A stretch of 38,435 nucleotides of DNA from a virus: positions 1 through 38,435 of IMG/VR virus record IMGVR_UViG_3300044612_000314. One strand, 5' to 3'. Below, in pieces: positions 6,096-15,759 of this stretch (position 1 is its first letter; each line of letters starts with the position of its first letter). The notes under the pieces were generated by a model. That model was not told the origin of the DNA. It made no database searches and was given only the letters and a program-made list of their open reading frames with translations. A program made the translations under genes and the position numbers.

Positions 6096-7717
6096 GTTGT
6101 TCCTTTCTTGTATTCACCGTCTAGTGGGCAGCGAAGACCTAAGACTTCTCCTGCTTCCTTGATACTGCTTACTGCTAACTTACCTACTGCATCTGCATCT
6201 TCCTGACTGCATTCGATCTGCCACTCGTCATGAACATTAGCTACGAAGTGGGCATTAAGTTTCTGCTGCTGAATCTTACTGCTTAGTATGACCAAACCTT
6301 GCTTCATCACTATTGCACCAGCACTCTGCAGGAGTGTGTTAAGTGCTGCGTGTGCGGAACGAACTTGTAGTTTCCTACCGTCCAGACCTGGTAGCGTCCC
6401 TTGTTCTGATAAGCGTTCAACCTTTTCTCTAAGACTCTTGAGAGCAGGAGTGTTGCGAAGAAAATTACTGATGAGTTCCTGACCATCTTTTGCCGAACCA
6501 CCAACAATCTTCCCGATTTTGGCAGGCCCTGCACCGTAGAGTAAGGCATATATAAATGTTTTGGCTTGTGCCCTTGTTTCCAAACCAGCAGCGAGTTGGT
6601 TTTTCGTGTGTACATCGCCTTCAACGATTTCTTTTGCATAGCTTTCATCCTTCATATAGTGTGCCAACATCCGTAACTCAAGAGAACTAGCGTCTGCACC
6701 CACTAAGACATTACCATCATCTACTGTCCAGCAATCCCTACACTCGTGGCCCCAAGGACTGCTACTGCTGGGAACCTGAGCCATGTTCGGGCTGTGGTGT
6801 GTCATCCGTCCCGTGACTGCCCCATTGGTGATGACCTTACCGTGAACCCTGCGCTCGTCAGATACAAACTCAAGCCATGATTCAACCTGAGCCACCCGTT
6901 TCTGAATGAGTAAGTACTCTGCGATTCTCTTTGCCTCTGGAATATCAACTCCGTCAAGAACTGATTCGTCAACAATTACAGCTCCTTTCTCAGTGTGCTT
7001 AGTGGGTTTCCAGCCTTTCTCAATCAATCGCTTTGCTATCTGCTGGCGTGAACCAGGATTAAATACTTCAACATCATCCTTCAACTGCTTGCCTGTCTTC
7101 TCACTAAACCTTTGAGTGATAATAGGTGGGAAAATGGTTTGCAACTCCTCTTCAATGTCAGATAGCTTCCTCTTCCATTGTCCAAGCAGGCACTGGGCTT
7201 TCACAGTATCGAGTTTAAAGCCATGCTTCTCCTGCTTAGTAATGATAGCCTGCACCTTGTGCTCCAGTTCAATAGACTGCTCAGAGAATCCTTTCAGTTC
7301 CTGAAGCAAGTATAAATATAATTCACCACAAATGATTACATCCTCTTGACAGTACAGAATCATGTCATCTGTCAGGCCGCCCTCGAAATCGTCGTATTCC
7401 TTCTTGGTTCGGTTTACTAGCTTTGCGAGATTGGCTAGACTGTGTCCACCCTCTCTTGACGGGTTTGATAGTCTTGACATAACCAGTGTGTCCCGTACTT
7501 GGTTCAGTCTGATCGAAGTCTTCCAGACTCTGTTTAGGACGTGGCAGTCGAATGATATTCCGTTGTGAGCGATTATCAGCTTTGCCTGTTGAATAAACTT
7601 GTTGAAGTCTTGTGCGTTTGTCCATGTCTTTACTTCTTTAGTATCTAAATTATAGGTAGAGCAACACCAGATAGTGTTGTGTTTCAGGTTAGTCTCGATG
7701 TCAATTGCAACTCTCAT
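6077..7717 (-). CDS. Family A DNA polymerase with 3'-5' exonuclease, T7 gp5-like, 546 aa
   Basis: Replicative polymerase. Proofreading motifs: DIET at residues 6-9 (Exo I), HNGISFDCHVL (Exo II), and YCQEDVIIC (Exo III). Polymerase motifs: A, GADASSLELRMLAHYM; B, RAQAKTFIYALLYGAG; C, VANVHDEWQIE. The residue equivalent to E. coli Phe762 is Tyr, as in T7. At 546 residues it is much shorter than T7 gp5 (704), so the thioredoxin-binding loop and other insertions are probably reduced. It overlaps the methyltransferase gene by 17 bases. Confidence 0.96.
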   Translation of the reverse strand: MRVAIDIETNLKHNTIWCCSTYNLDTKEVKTWTNAQDFNKFIQQAKLIIAHNGISFDCHVLNRVWKTSIRLNQVRDTLVMSRLSNPSREGGHSLANLAKLVNRTKKEYDDFEGGLTDDMILYCQEDVIICGELYLYLLQELKGFSEQSIELEHKVQAIITKQEKHGFKLDTVKAQCLLGQWKRKLSDIEEELQTIFPPIITQRFSEKTGKQLKDDVEVFNPGSRQQIAKRLIEKGWKPTKHTEKGAVIVDESVLDGVDIPEAKRIAEYLLIQKRVAQVESWLEFVSDERRVHGKVITNGAVTGRMTHHSPNMAQVPSSSSPWGHECRDCWTVDDGNVLVGADASSLELRMLAHYMKDESYAKEIVEGDVHTKNQLAAGLETRAQAKTFIYALLYGAGPAKIGKIVGGSAKDGQELISNFLRNTPALKSLREKVERLSEQGTLPGLDGRKLQVRSAHAALNTLLQSAGAIVMKQGLVILSSKIQQQKLNAHFVANVHDEWQIECSQEDADAVGKLAVSSIKEAGEVLGLRCPLDGEYKKGTTWAQTH

Positions 7718-8330
7718 GTAGGTAGATCCCGTTTCCTATTGTGTTAAATATTTTATCATACTTTAGCAGTTTTAGCAAGTTATCGAAGTACTCTACCTTA
7801 CCGTGGTTCTCAACACAGATGACCTTTGGCCTACCTAACATCGTCTGTAGCACTGGGTAGTCCAGACCTTCTATGTCTATACACAATAAATCAGGGACAC
7901 CATACATATCAAAGAGACTATCAAGGGTTACAACTTTCACCTGTTTTACAGTTCTTATCTTAAACTCAGGATGGTTCTTGATAAACTCCAAGATAGTATC
8001 GTAATCAAAACTGTTCCTACCTGAGAAGTCATCGATCATAAAGAACTCTAACTCTCCAGCCACAACACCAACACCTACATTCAGTATCGTGTCTATCGGT
8101 CTATGATACTCAAAAGCCTTAATATGATTAGGGTTAGCCTCGACACAGACCCCTCTCCAGCCACGCTCATAGAGCAGGGCAGTGTTGCTGATGTTATAGG
8201 GATGGTGCGCCCCAACATCGAAGTATCTGCCGTTCTCGATACCTAACTTGTTAAAGACATTCAGTAGGATTAAGTCTTCCCCGAACTGCGAGTAAGTCCT
8301 GTCTCCGAATGCTTGATCAGGATGACTCAT
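7701..8330 (-). CDS. FkbM-family SAM-dependent methyltransferase, 209 aa
   Basis: Class I methyltransferase. The SAM-binding loop YFDVGAHHP is at 36-44, the acidic VEAN motif at 63-66, and the FkbM signature CIDIEGLDYPVL at 150-161. Family members O-methylate sugars and related small molecules. It sits between polymerase and primase-helicase, overlapping both by a few bases, so it is expressed with replication genes. Together with the GT9-like protein it suggests a glycan or nucleotide modification step. Substrate unknown. Confidence 0.85.
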   Translation of the reverse strand: MSHPDQAFGDRTYSQFGEDLILLNVFNKLGIENGRYFDVGAHHPYNISNTALLYERGWRGVCVEANPNHIKAFEYHRPIDTILNVGVGVVAGELEFFMIDDFSGRNSFDYDTILEFIKNHPEFKIRTVKQVKVVTLDSLFDMYGVPDLLCIDIEGLDYPVLQTMLGRPKVICVENHGKVEYFDNLLKLLKYDKIFNTIGNGIYLHESCN

Positions 8331-10218: not shown

Positions 10219-10414
10219 GATCTAGTCCACAATGAGAATCGTTCTCATCTGAGTAGTCTTCCTCATGTGCTAAGTCAGACCTTTCAATGGTTTGTAAGTC
10301 TTCACTGACACTATTAAAACACCCGTTACACAGGTCAATAAACTCACCTGTATTAGCAGACTTCCTAGTAGCCTCATAATCACTGAGGTTTTTATTGCAA
10401 CTTAAGCATCTCAT
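10202..10414 (-). CDS. Zinc-ribbon-like protein with acidic tail, 70 aa
   Basis: Two CxxC knuckles, Cys3/Cys6 (MRCLSC) and Cys29/Cys32 (LCNGC), spaced as in a small zinc ribbon, followed by a strongly acidic tail (HEEDYSDENDSHCGLDLDKDY). A treble-clef or ribbon protein plus acidic tail could bind nucleic acid or host transcription proteins, though the partner is unknown. It overlaps the DUF1289 gene by 4 bases. Confidence 0.8.
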   Translation of the reverse strand: MRCLSCNKNLSDYEATRKSANTGEFIDLCNGCFNSVSEDLQTIERSDLAHEEDYSDENDSHCGLDLDKDY

Positions 10415-10605
10415 TTTCCGTCATCTCCATAAAGTTTGTTTAGTCTGTCCCTACATTGTACCATGATTCTGTCCTTCTCAAGGTCAGGTACTAGCGACCA
10501 GTCTAGGATCTCGTCTAAGCGCCTCCCGCACCCGTAGCATATACCCCACCCCTCGACCACCTGACAGATGCCCACACAGGGCGTTTTAGGGCTTCTCAGA
10601 GGCAT
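10411..10605 (-). CDS. DUF1289 family Cys-rich protein, 64 aa
   Basis: Matches the DUF1289 pattern: PCVGICQV, then GICYGCGRRLDEILDWS, with Cys10, Cys14, Cys23 and Cys26 as likely metal ligands. The family is common in proteobacteria; its function is poorly defined and a metal or Fe-S site has been assumed. Its presence in a phage suggests capture from a host and possible use in takeover. It overlaps the coiled-coil gene upstream by 20 bases and the zinc-ribbon gene downstream by 4. Confidence 0.82.
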   Translation of the reverse strand: MPLRSPKTPCVGICQVVEGWGICYGCGRRLDEILDWSLVPDLEKDRIMVQCRDRLNKLYGDDGK

Positions 10606-12841: not shown

Positions 12842-13069
12842 TTAGGCTTGAGCGATTGTCTCGGTTAGTTCAGTTAGGTTAGTTAGGGCATTCTGTTCTA
12901 GCCTAACAAAGGCAGATTTCTGCGACTCTGTTGAGGCTTTAGCAATCCTATCACAATAAAATTTCCTGATGCCAATCTCGGCACATTGAAGGATTGAATC
13001 GAGTTCTGCCTCATCGATCTCGAGGGTTATCGTGCGTGTCTGTGGGTTTAGTTTTGCTGTGGTTTTCAT
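12842..13069 (-). CDS. Hypothetical small protein, first gene of the left arm, 75 aa
   Basis: Starts MKTTAKLNPQTRTITLEID, then a long helix rich in Glu, Ala and Gln, and ends LTELTETIAQA. It has AAAGGAAA just before its ATG. One Cys pair (Cys29, Cys39) but no CxxC. It is the first gene read leftward from the central control region, so probably expressed earliest. Function unknown. Confidence 0.75.
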   Translation of the reverse strand: MKTTAKLNPQTRTITLEIDEAELDSILQCAEIGIRKFYCDRIAKASTESQKSAFVRLEQNALTNLTELTETIAQA

Positions 13070-13165
13070 GGTGTTTCCTTTCGTGGTTTGTTTACTTCAG
13101 ACCACAGTATAAGCACAGAATTCCAGCCTTGGTACTAGGGAAAACCCTTATCTTGACAACTGTGC

Positions 13166-13198
13166 TCAGGTATTGCCTGCCTGTGGATAAATACCTGA
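13166..13198. repeat. Inverted repeat enclosing a perfect DnaA box
   Basis: Arms TCAGGTATT (13166-13174) and AATACCTGA (13190-13198) are perfect complements with a 15-base loop. The loop and first arm base contain TGTGGATAA (13182-13190), the reverse complement of the E. coli DnaA box TTATCCACA. This may be a DnaA-regulated site or part of an origin; it could also be a repressor operator. Confidence 0.65.
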
Positions 13199-13402
13199 CA
13201 AGGGAACAAGGTCAAATCGGGCTGGAACCCGCATGGATATTAGAAAAACCGCTGGTGACCCTTAGTTGATACCTGCCTAGCCTAAACAGAGAAAACCTGT
13301 CCTAAGGCTTTCTAGTGAGTTTTAGAAGTATGTATATCTATACAGTACTGGTTACTGGTTATTTAGTGATCAGTAACGCACCTGATTGGTGCAATAGTTT
13401 AT

Positions 13403-13471
13403 GACTATGGATTGCATAGGTTTAGACTATGGCTGCATAGTGTCAGGTTAGTGTCAAGGTAGTGTTACAGG
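13403..13471. repeat. Direct and tandem repeats, iteron-like
   Basis: GACTATGG followed by ATTGCATAG (13403-13419) recurs as GACTATGG plus CTGCATAG (13425-13440), 22 bases apart. Three tandem units follow at 13438-13448 (TAGTGTCAGGT), 13449-13459 (TAGTGTCAAGG) and 13460-13471 (TAGTGTTACAGG), about one helical turn each. TGCATAG occurs again at 13514-13520 and 13588-13594. Confidence 0.65.
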
Positions 13472-13501
13472 GTGCACAATAGACACTCTCACTGCACAAC
13501 C

Positions 13502-13534
13502 TGGCATGATTCTTGCATAGCAATTACTGTGCCA
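13502..13534. promoter_or_regulatory. 33-bp dyad resembling two face-to-face sigma-54 promoters
   Basis: TGGCA, 6 bases, TTGC, ATA, GCAA, 6 bases, TGCCA: exactly symmetric about 13518. Each strand matches the sigma-54 -24/-12 consensus with the right GG-N10-GC spacing (plus: TGGCATG-N4-TTGCA; minus: TGGCACA-N4-TTGCT). It may therefore be one or two RpoN promoters, or simply the operator of a dimeric regulator that happens to resemble them. Confidence 0.45.
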
Positions 13535-13548
13535 AGCCTGATCAGCAC

Positions 13549-13566
13549 TGTTGCGTAAATACAACA
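13549..13566 (+). repeat. Recurrent 18-mer, degenerate copy
   Basis: TGTTGCGTAAATACAACA matches 15 of 18 positions of the hairpin after the 18034 promoter (18071-18088) and resembles 13896-13913. The outer TGTTG/CAACA arms remain complementary. No clear sigma-70 promoter lies directly upstream, but the sigma-54-like dyad ends 15 bases before it. Confidence 0.5.
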
Positions 13567-13607
13567 CTATTCATTTATGCGTATATCTGCATAGACGGGG
13601 GGAGGAG

Positions 13608-13646
13608 GTGTTGTGTAGTCTTAATTTTATGAGGACCCTACAACAC
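13608..13646. repeat. Inverted repeat with GTGTTGT/ACAACAC arms
   Basis: GTGTTGT (13608-13614) and ACAACAC (13640-13646) are perfect complements around a 25-base loop. The arms resemble the TGTTGTA/TACAACA half-sites found elsewhere in the genome, suggesting another copy of the same binding site or RNA element. A G-rich purine run immediately precedes it. Confidence 0.45.
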
Positions 13647-13820
13647 TGATGAGAAGGCAAAATAGACCCTATATATGGGCTAAATTGTCTATAAAATTAC
13701 TAGATGTGGTAGTGCTATAAAGTCCTTATAAATCAATAACTTACATCTGTGCAGTACACCCTTGCAGATCTTAACTAAAAAGGACAGTGCTTATTCCTTC
13801 GTAATACCCAGAAGAGACGC

Positions 13821-13842
13821 CCCTCTTAAGCCCTAAAGAGGG
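13821..13842. repeat. Inverted repeat upstream of the main late promoter
   Basis: CCCTCTT (13821-13827), loop AAGCCCTA, AAGAGGG (13836-13842): a perfect 7-bp stem 19 bases before the -35. No T-run follows on either strand, so it is more likely an operator or insulating hairpin than a terminator. Confidence 0.5.
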
Positions 13843-13861
13843 ACAGAACAGTAGAAAAGAC

Positions 13862-13890
13862 TTGACAAATCTCTAAAAATATGCTATAAT
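13862..13890 (+). promoter_or_regulatory. Perfect sigma-70 promoter for the rightward arm
   Basis: TTGACA (13862-13867), 17-bp spacer, TATAAT (13885-13890), with TGC before the -10 (extended). Predicted start about 13897, giving a leader of about 184 bases before the terminase small subunit gene. Lies in non-coding DNA. It is the strongest candidate for driving packaging and portal genes with host RNA polymerase. Confidence 0.88.
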
Positions 13891-13894
13891 ATTC

Positions 13895-14040
13895 ATGTAG
13901 TAGAAAAACAACAAGAACTAACTATATAGATCTGAGCAGTTGATCGCTTAAGAAGTTACTAGTAACAACTAGTCATCTAAGAAGGAATATTATTAATAAT
14001 AATTACTAGTTACCTTCTAAACAGTTATATCCTACTACAT
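13895..14040 (+). promoter_or_regulatory. Highly structured 5' leader of the rightward transcript
   Basis: ATGTAGTAG (13895-13903) pairs perfectly with CTACTACAT (14032-14040), closing the leader. Within it are the 12-bp palindrome GTTACTAGTAAC (13955-13966), AGAAGG (13980-13985) pairing with CCTTCT (14013-14018), and the AT palindrome ATTATTAATAAT. An RNA this rich in nested complementarity may control stability, RNase processing or timing; alternatively the palindromes are DNA-binding sites. Confidence 0.55.
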
Positions 14041-14080
14041 ACAAAAACAAATGATGTAAAACTATATAGAGGAGAATTTA

Positions 14081-14497
14081 GTGTCAAACACTGAACCTCT
14101 GTCTGATGTGTCTGTGTCCCCTTCAAAGAGGAAACGTGGCAGACCTCGTAAGGCAGACATTGAAGCCAAGAAGAATAGAAATGCAGTAGGAAGACCTCCT
14201 GGAGAGGCCGCTAGGATAAAAGAATTCTATGCTCGTTTACTGTCCACCAGTGGTGAGAAGGTAATTGAGACTGTACTTAGGAAGGCGATGGATGATCAGG
14301 ATAAGGATCAGGTTGCCTGTCTTAAGATGTGTATCGATAGGCTATTGCCTCTAAGCCACTTTGAGAAGCAGGGACAGGGCAGGTCTAACGCAATACAGGT
14401 ACAGATTGTTACTACTGGTACACCCCAGATAGCTGCAAGAGAAGCTGAACAGATTGACTATGAAGTAATTGATGTAGACCCTGAGGAGACCAATTAA
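14081..14497 (+). CDS. Terminase small subunit with AT-hook, 138 aa
   Basis: Recognises the packaging site and presents DNA to the large subunit. The N-terminus has an AT-hook (KRKRGRPRKADIE) and a second, weaker copy (VGRPPGE), followed by a helical core (ARIKEFYARLL, ETVLRKAMDDQ, CLKMCIDRLLP) and an acidic C-terminus. GTG start with AGAGGAG upstream. The 1-base overlap with the large-subunit ATG supports the assignment more than the sequence alone. Confidence 0.82.
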   Translation: MSNTEPLSDVSVSPSKRKRGRPRKADIEAKKNRNAVGRPPGEAARIKEFYARLLSTSGEKVIETVLRKAMDDQDKDQVACLKMCIDRLLPLSHFEKQGQGRSNAIQVQIVTTGTPQIAAREAEQIDYEVIDVDPEETN

Positions 14498-15759
14498 TGG
14501 CAAACCTTAGAGTCGAACTACATCCTAAACAGACGGAAGTATTTAATGATAATCACCGTTTTAAAGTGGTTGCTGCAGGACGAAGATTTGGAAAGTCTCG
14601 TCTCGCTGCTTGGACCCTCATCATTGAGGCACTAAAAAGTAAAGAGAAGGATGTATTCTATGTTGCTCCTACTTTTCAGCAAGCTAAAGACATTATGTGG
14701 ACGGTTCTTAAGGAACTTGGACATGAAGTTATCAAAAATGTTCACGAGAATACGGCGGTAATAACTTTAGTAAACGATAGGAAGATTTACCTAAAAGGGT
14801 CTGACCGTCCAGATACAATGCGAGGTGTGGGTCTAGCGTATGTCGTGATTGACGAGTATGCTGACATGAAGCCCCAAGTGTTCGAGCAGATCCTTAGACC
14901 AGCATTAAGTGATGTAAAGGGTGGAGCACTGTTCATTGGAACCCCAAAGGGCAGGAATCACTTCTATGAGTTGTACCAGATGGCCCAAAAGGATGAAGAT
15001 GAAGATTGGTCCTCGTTTCACTTTACTTCTTTTGATAACCCTCTACTCGATCCTAAAGAGATTGAGGCGGCAAAAAAGTCAATGTCTTCCTTCAGTTTTA
15101 GACAGGAATACCTTGCTAGTTTCGAAGCCGCTGCATCAGACCTATTTAAGGATGAATGGATTAAGTATGTTGATTCTGATGATCTGCCTGATGACGGTGC
15201 TTATTACATCGCTGTTGATTTGGCTGGCTTTGAGGATGTAAGCAAGCAGGCTAGCAACAAGAGGAAGAATCTTGATGAGTCTGCGATAGCTGTGGTTAAG
15301 GTTTGTCAGGATGGTTGGTTTGTAGATACTATAGTGGCGGGTCGATGGGATATCAAAGAAACAGCTTTAAAAATATTAGACACAGCAAAAAGTTACGATG
15401 TCAGATTAATAGGTATAGAGCGGGGAATGGCAAAGAATGCCGTACTCCCGTACCTACAAGACTTGATGAGGAGGAAGAACTATTTCTTGTCAGTGATAGA
15501 TCTGACTCATGGCAACAAGAAGAAGACGGACCGTATAGTATGGGCTTTACAGGGTCGCTTCGAACATGGAAGGATTAGTTTAGTTAGAGGCGAGTGGAAT
15601 AAGCAGTTTGTGGATCAGCTTCTAAACTTTCCTAACCCACAGGTCCATGATGACTTAATTGATGCCTTAGCCTACATCGATCAGATCGGTATCACAGAGT
15701 TTGTAGGCGTACTAGATGAAGAAGAATACGAAGCCTTGGATGACATATCAGGATACTAG
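14497..15759 (+). CDS. Terminase large subunit, 420 aa
   Basis: Packaging motor. ATPase: Walker A GRRFGKS at 28-34, Walker B VVIDEYAD at 116-123 with catalytic Glu120, and coupling motif FIGTPKG near 146-152. RNase H-like nuclease: Asp241 (AVDLAG), Glu308 (GIERG), and Asp385/386 (HDDLIDALAY). Length is typical of the Terminase_6 type. All key residues are present. Confidence 0.96.
   Translation: MANLRVELHPKQTEVFNDNHRFKVVAAGRRFGKSRLAAWTLIIEALKSKEKDVFYVAPTFQQAKDIMWTVLKELGHEVIKNVHENTAVITLVNDRKIYLKGSDRPDTMRGVGLAYVVIDEYADMKPQVFEQILRPALSDVKGGALFIGTPKGRNHFYELYQMAQKDEDEDWSSFHFTSFDNPLLDPKEIEAAKKSMSSFSFRQEYLASFEAAASDLFKDEWIKYVDSDDLPDDGAYYIAVDLAGFEDVSKQASNKRKNLDESAIAVVKVCQDGWFVDTIVAGRWDIKETALKILDTAKSYDVRLIGIERGMAKNAVLPYLQDLMRRKNYFLSVIDLTHGNKKKTDRIVWALQGRFEHGRISLVRGEWNKQFVDQLLNFPNPQVHDDLIDALAYIDQIGITEFVGVLDEEEYEALDDISGY

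Follow-up and report, generated by a model that had tools for sequence, protein, structure and literature searches.

Facing sigma-54 consensus elements amid host-regulator-like sites in the divergent control region of a phage genome, and their recurrence in unrelated viruses

The window, by which we mean the whole stretch of DNA analysed here, is an IMG/VR virus record of 38,435 bases with two divergently oriented gene arms. The leftward replication arm encodes a primase-helicase, a PolA-type polymerase, an exonuclease, a RusA-like resolvase, and an SSB-like protein, and the rightward packaging and structural arm encodes TerS-like, TerL, portal, head, and tail proteins. The two arms are separated by a control region, in the middle of which lies a 33-bp dyad. 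The bordering genes and the promoter-like elements of this region are as follows.

12842-13069, minus strand: first leftward gene, 75 aa, without family match
13070-14080, non-coding: divergent intergenic control region of 1,011 bases (leftward gene starts reach 13069, the rightward TerS gene starts at 14081)
13502-13534, both strands: 33-bp dyad TGGCATGATTCTTGCATAGCAATTACTGTGCCA, two facing sigma-54 -24/-12 elements with 3 bp between them
13502-13516, plus strand: rightward sigma-54 core TGGCATGATTCTTGC, predicted start at about 13528
13520-13534, minus strand: leftward sigma-54 core TGGCACAGTAATTGC, predicted start at about 13508
13862-13890, plus strand: sigma-70 promoter of the right arm, with the perfect sequence TTGACA-N17-TATAAT
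14081-14497, plus strand: small terminase-like gene, 138 aa, with an AT-hook-like stretch, assigned to TerS because of its position and of the similarity among relatives
14497-15759, plus strand: large terminase gene (phrog_2, E 1.3e-47)

No nucleotide relatives of the window were found in INPHARED, and the Rfam and tRNA scans gave no matches. The nearest primase-helicases are those of Pelagibacter phages (54%), which says little about the host. Among the remaining genes of the leftward arm are those for a product with a weak glycosyltransferase-9 match (1625-2629), an FkbM-type methyltransferase (7701-8330), and a DUF1289 protein (10411-10605). The control region also contains a minus-strand terminator-like hairpin directly upstream of the perfect sigma-70 promoter (13818-13845), and an imperfect inverted repeat GTGTTGTGTAG..CTACAACAC at 13608-13646 with TACAACA repeats near it; relatives carry AAATACAACAYTGG.

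The layout of the dyad is TGGCA (13502-13506)-TGATTC-TTGC-ATA-GCAA-TTACTG-TGCCA (13530-13534), in exact agreement with the sequence and coordinates given in an earlier, sequence-only reading of this DNA. The exact symmetry proposed there holds for the 18 named positions and fails in the two N6 stretches, which are non-complementary, while the GG-N10-GC spacing is indeed present on both strands. In the whole 38.4 kb the pattern TGGCA-N6-TTGCW occurs without mismatches only twice, as the two arms of the dyad, and two exact TGGCAYRNNNNTTGC sites were obtained in none of 3000 Markov shuffles of the 1-kb intergenic region. Across the window and the loci L006, L060, and L094 the dyad is 97% identical.

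The consensus core of sigma-54 promoters is TGGCAYR-N4-TTGC, and both this core and the GG-N10-GC spacing are exact in each arm. A motif of the same shape was obtained by ChIP in E. coli (PMC4591121). A search with the 18 fixed positions of the dyad, the rest being left free, retrieved 107 IMG/VR contigs with 83 distinct sequences. In the half-site contexts of these distinct dyads, TGGCA is followed by C or T in all 186, the next position is A or G in about 99%, and the flank is a pyrimidine in 77%. The search had left these positions free, and their succession of Y and R matches the sigma-54 consensus rule. In 575 kb of TerL relatives, fetched by TerL similarity only, exact TGGCAYR-N4-TTGC occurs 31 times, compared with 0-2 occurrences for altered spacings, 0-1 for other base classes, and one for the reversed motif. 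These results support the proposal that both arms are sigma-54 elements. Because the motif reproduces the sigma-54 rules and turns up repeatedly in viruses that are unrelated and have no regulator gene in common, we consider recognition of the dyad by RpoN very likely.

With Y and R fixed as well, a scan of 84,980 genomes of bacteria and archaea (257 Gb) detected the dyad in only two contigs. One of these matches (L302) adjoins a Zot gene and belongs to an inovirus prophage, and the other (L301) adjoins an ORF that was judged TerS-like by eye only. We conclude that the element is confined, or almost confined, to viruses; its recurrence there, as against two cellular contigs, is far beyond chance. 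It is present in podophage-like contigs, a Pakpunavirus, T5-like vibriophages, a 354-kb contig, and the inovirus prophage, which are unrelated viruses. Its carriers include vibriophages in culture (about 290 records) and a Pseudomonas phage. In large phage records the sigma-54 sites concentrate in one short region. BLAST with arrays or pooled dyads was too insensitive for such a degenerate motif, and one BLAST result was excluded, as the query had included the vibriophage's own dyad. To our knowledge, sigma-54 has hardly been linked to phage control so far. The opinion of the sequence-only reading that its promoters are unusual in phages has to be abandoned at the level of sites, as sigma-54-like sites are widespread in them.

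The paired sites have a tight geometry. Facing pairs are separated by 3-7 bp, never by 0-2 bp and seldom by more; after strict thinning, 36 of the 64 facing gaps of up to 31 bp fall in the range of 3-7 bp, where 10 were expected. The gaps of back-to-back pairs peak at 5-10, 16-20, and 26-30 bp, which corresponds to a period of 10.5 bp (R = 0.47, the maximum of 2000 random sets being 0.40). Regular arrays occur in L001, L004, and L011, and six tandem sites of the same direction lie within about 300 bp in L225.

Sites resembling those of several host regulators accompany the dyad. They were absent from the sequence-only reading, as was the perfect sigma-70 promoter, and they alter the picture.

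13182-13190, minus strand: DnaA-box-like TTATCCACA (202 of 3000 shuffles, not significant alone)
13328-13347: LexA-like box GTATGTATATCTATACAGTA, 16 of 20 positions with one core mismatch (21 of 3000 shuffles, weak by itself)
13377-13393: NtrC-like enhancer CGCACCTGATTGGTGCA, 12 of 14 positions with 2 mismatches, about 140 bp upstream of the predicted rightward sigma-54 start (7 of 3000 shuffles)
13394-13430: OxyR-like site ATAG-N7-CTAT-N7-ATAG-N7-CTAT, 16 of 16 positions, also in L006 and L060 (even 2 mismatches were reached in just 3 of 3000 shuffles)
13731-13743, plus strand: IHF-like site AATCAATAACTTA (197 of 3000 shuffles, not significant alone)

The best NtrC, OxyR, LexA-like, and sigma-54 sites of the whole 38 kb are all inside the 1-kb intergenic region. 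The NtrC-like site is 100% identical in four close relatives; the support that site conservation in L006, L060, and L094 provides is modest, because these are similar to the window overall (85-89%). An IHF-like site about 200 bp to the right of the dyad, similar to that of the window, is present in L006, L060, L110, L115, L112, and L146, and IHF-like and sigma-54 sites tend to be found together (Fisher p = 0.002).

Of all 4+4 inverted repeats ranked, with no prior selection of motifs, near 141 independent dyads, GCAC-N7-GTGC with its concentric registers and ATAG-N7-CTAT stand out. We take the former to be the core of the NtrC enhancer TGCACCA-N3-TGGTGCA and the latter to be an OxyR element. 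GCAC-N7-GTGC also ranks first among 4352 inverted repeats in the TerS-upstream regions of TerL relatives, which were chosen by no sigma-54 criterion: it occurs 19 times upstream of TerS and not once in 4-5 times more sequence, the reversed control giving none, and the corresponding numbers for NtrC sites with up to 2 mismatches are 20 and 0. In known-motif scans, which used consensus sequences mostly from E. coli, the motifs of NtrC, Fur, LexA, IHF, and DnaA are enriched 6-11 fold near dyads (NtrC 11-fold) and likewise in the TerS-upstream regions chosen without any motif; no enrichment was found for CRP, FNR, PhoB, PurR, MetJ, TyrR, and others. At the level of sequence, the clustering of host-regulator-like sites is statistically robust. 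With respect to sigma-54 sites, those of NtrC favour neither side (28 vs. 28) nor any helical phase. A further repeat, TAAG-N4-CTTA, is strongly enriched upstream of TerS in the TerL relatives (13 vs. 1, reversed 0) and matches no regulator site known to us.

In the window, both arms of the dyad read outward, in the direction of gene starts. As a check, the sequence-only reading had named the conservation of GG and GC in related phages; there the core and its degenerate positions are kept, and the leftward arm is lost in some. A single rightward arm, without the full dyad, is kept upstream of TerS in L112, L135, L138, L139, L146, and L147, some of which are near copies, and in L112 the leftward arm has decayed. 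In six relatives, also including near copies, a leftward site stands directly after a left-arm stop codon and reads with the leftward genes. A near-consensus sigma-54 element precedes three or four genes of L189, at about 40 nt from the start codon. With gene calls that are crude for small genes, most dyads are flanked by divergent genes (87 divergent, 40 codirectional, and 9 convergent), and the direction bias of single sites is weak: over all loci they read with genes in 132 cases and against them in 101, those of L230, L294, and L247 pointing against genes. Sigma-70 promoters are enriched 200-400 bp outward of dyads.

Three of these loci have peculiarities of their own. In the intergenic regions of L189, each stop codon is followed by a reverse sigma-54 site and the next gene is preceded by a forward near-consensus site, with a conserved TCCGGATAGG element between the two. 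In L230 (2055-6025), paired sigma-54-like sites face away from small leftward genes, beside CTGCCATTTTGGCAG palindromes, and lie about 32-33 nt upstream of the sigma-70 -35 boxes of those genes. In L294 (706-860, 2511-2711, and 4425-4617), Fur boxes TGAGAATCATTCTCA alternate with tandem GCAA-N4-YRTGCCAAA..TTTACRTAACTC upstream of sigma-70 promoters.

The most likely function of the dyad, although we would put it somewhat short of an even chance, is that of a two-way pair of sigma-54 promoters activated by host NtrC. In its favour count the sigma-54 consensus at the free positions of the dyads, the NtrC motif upstream of TerS and near dyads, the association of IHF-like with sigma-54 sites, the single arms and leftward sites kept in relatives, the gene-proximal elements of L189, and the placement of most dyads between divergent genes. 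The overlapping opposed -24/-12 elements would let the host sigma-54 RNA polymerase load either way in the middle of the control region. Under nitrogen stress, the closed complex would be opened by host NtrC, which would bind the putative upstream enhancer site at 13377-13393 and be assisted by IHF-induced bending. RNA would then start rightward at about 13528, into the packaging and structural arm, or leftward at about 13508, into the replication arm, and this would constitute a stress-driven second promoter set beside the ordinary sigma-70 promoter. The facing elements, which the sequence-only reading took for interfering promoters, are real as sequence matches, but the transcripts predicted from them would not collide, because the two starts point away from each other; any competition would be for RNA polymerase binding only, and the switch between the arms that was suggested there stays conjectural. 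We infer RpoN binding, NtrC activation, and two-way transcription rather than observe them; the binding is very likely, whereas the chain as a whole is given somewhat less than an even chance.

In the case of glnAp2, the NtrC site is located near -140, and the like placement of the NtrC-like site of the window may, by analogy, count in favour of a promoter. The dyad further resembles this NtrC-activated promoter in its exact TGGCAYR-N4-TTGC core and in the IHF-like sites near it; it differs in that its elements face each other at 3-7 bp, that it is found in phages and known from sequence alone, and that the side and phase of NtrC sites vary. Bidirectional sigma-70 promoters of bacteria, with symmetric elements and measured transcription, have been described by Warman et al. 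(PMC12825309). There, as predicted for the dyad, symmetry admits polymerase in two mutually exclusive orientations with divergent output, whereas the symmetry of the dyad lies in sigma-54 elements and its starts are predicted only. Cyanophages carry sites of host nutrient regulators: those of NtcA (PMC3037559) and those of PhoB, whose boxes were examined in gel-shift assays (PMC10976474). Phage DNA with sites for host nutrient-stress regulators is common to these cases and ours, although the cyanophage sites are single boxes at phage promoters, for other regulators and in other hosts, and not clusters of global regulator sites combined with sigma-54 dyads.

Several observations count against a plain promoter. 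Single sites point with genes only weakly more often than against them, and NtrC sites keep to no fixed side or phase. The fixed facing gap, the back-to-back period, and the arrays are not what a plain promoter needs, and the LexA, Fur, and OxyR sites of the same regions have no link to sigma-54. Neither the phage-encoded activator domain PF00158 nor the sigma-54 DNA-binding domain PF04552 was found in the 18-20 dyad records searched, and PF00158 had no match in the window. With a confidence only slightly lower than for the two-way promoter, we consider that the dyad may belong to a virus-specific control hub of many unrelated phages, at which several of the host's global regulators would be sensed or sequestered simultaneously. 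Such a hub would consist of facing or arrayed sigma-54 elements in fixed helical geometry together with consensus NtrC, OxyR, Fur, LexA, IHF, and DnaA sites, placed between divergent early sigma-70 promoters.

The strongest alternative to the two-way promoter, less probable but to be taken seriously, is that the region only binds: high-affinity sites for sigma-54 polymerase, NtrC, OxyR, Fur, LexA, IHF, and DnaA would act as a decoy or hub without any sigma-54 transcription, either titrating these proteins as phage copies rise or forming a nucleoprotein block between divergent sigma-70 promoters. The selective enrichment of regulator motifs near dyads and upstream of TerS is consistent with this, and so are the dense arrays with their helical phasing, the near-perfect sites such as the OxyR site of the window, and the weak gene-direction bias. 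The sites lie 200-350 bp from sigma-70 promoters, and since these promoters are 200-400 bp outward, the LexA-, Fur-, and OxyR-like sites in the middle of the regions would not regulate them in the usual manner. The first-step-transfer DNA of phage T5 is likewise an early region of divergent control that bears consensus sites of host proteins, namely LexA, Fur, and DnaA; unlike the dyad phages, T5 shows no exact sigma-54 half-site over the 14 kb covered. However, the window has one site of most kinds, which would titrate little unless copy number is high, and binding alone leaves unexplained both the leftward sites that read with left-arm genes in the relatives and the gene-proximal sites of L189.

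In T5 (L380, AY543070.1, 6.1-6.2 kb and 9.4-9.7 kb), the first-step-transfer LexA boxes are unique to the terminal repeats within the genome, DnaA boxes are present, and four Fur-like boxes lie within 160 bp of the injection stop signal.

That the dyad is an operator for some other dimeric protein of phage or host, with a half-site that resembles the sigma-54 consensus, seems improbable to us. The facing gap and the back-to-back phasing do suggest small proteins placed side by side, and a single dyad presumably cannot seat two RNA polymerases; yet the motif copies sigma-54 even at the degenerate positions and in the flanks, and it occurs in unrelated viruses. Clustering of the ORFs at 221 dyad loci revealed no shared regulator, the recurring neighbours being TerL (100) and TerS (74). 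An operator of a phage-encoded regulator was rejected as a candidate, as only terminase genes recur widely at these loci. More doubtful still is a silent sigma-54 polymerase that would block the path of sigma-70 transcription or repress it locally: sigma-54 holoenzyme does bind DNA in a transcriptionally inactive state (PMC4591121) and no activator gene was found in the phage records searched, but the sites lie upstream of the main sigma-70 transcripts and not within them. Selection of the palindrome as a hairpin or terminator, like a dyad arisen by chance, can be dismissed as most improbable, for although a hairpin can be drawn (-8.9 kcal/mol) and the minimum facing gap of 3 equals the minimum loop, the fold z-score is just -1.06, the element is widespread in viruses, and in 112 thinned dyads the two arms agree less often than expected by chance (201 identities vs. 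256 +/- 12), which means that the palindrome itself is not selected and the hairpin is not the point. An RNA hairpin or terminator was thus rejected on its anti-correlated arms, its z-score, and the lack of an Rfam match.

If RpoN and NtrC act at the dyad, as the two-way promoter would have it, phage expression would be wired to the nitrogen state of the host, which bears on phages in starved natural populations; more generally, the phage may read or tie up host stress controls. The geometry of the dyad, together with its extreme scarcity in cellular genomes, suggests that viruses use sigma-54 in a manner not seen in bacteria. In a limited set of literature we found no paper that deals with sigma-54 as a means of controlling phages or with phage DNA as a decoy of host regulators, which does not prove that such work is absent, and as far as we searched, the facing sigma-54 pair, its fixed geometry, and its mixture with sites of several global regulators are undescribed. 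With vibriophages in culture and a Pseudomonas phage that carry the element, the question is directly testable.

In the cultured T5-like vibriophages, as seen in Vibrio phage D419 (L299, OZ195672.1, 103.2-107.2 kb), the early divergent region holds all five exact sigma-54 half-sites of the genome and all five DnaA boxes TTATCCACA, together with three LexA boxes and two perfect CRP-like sites.
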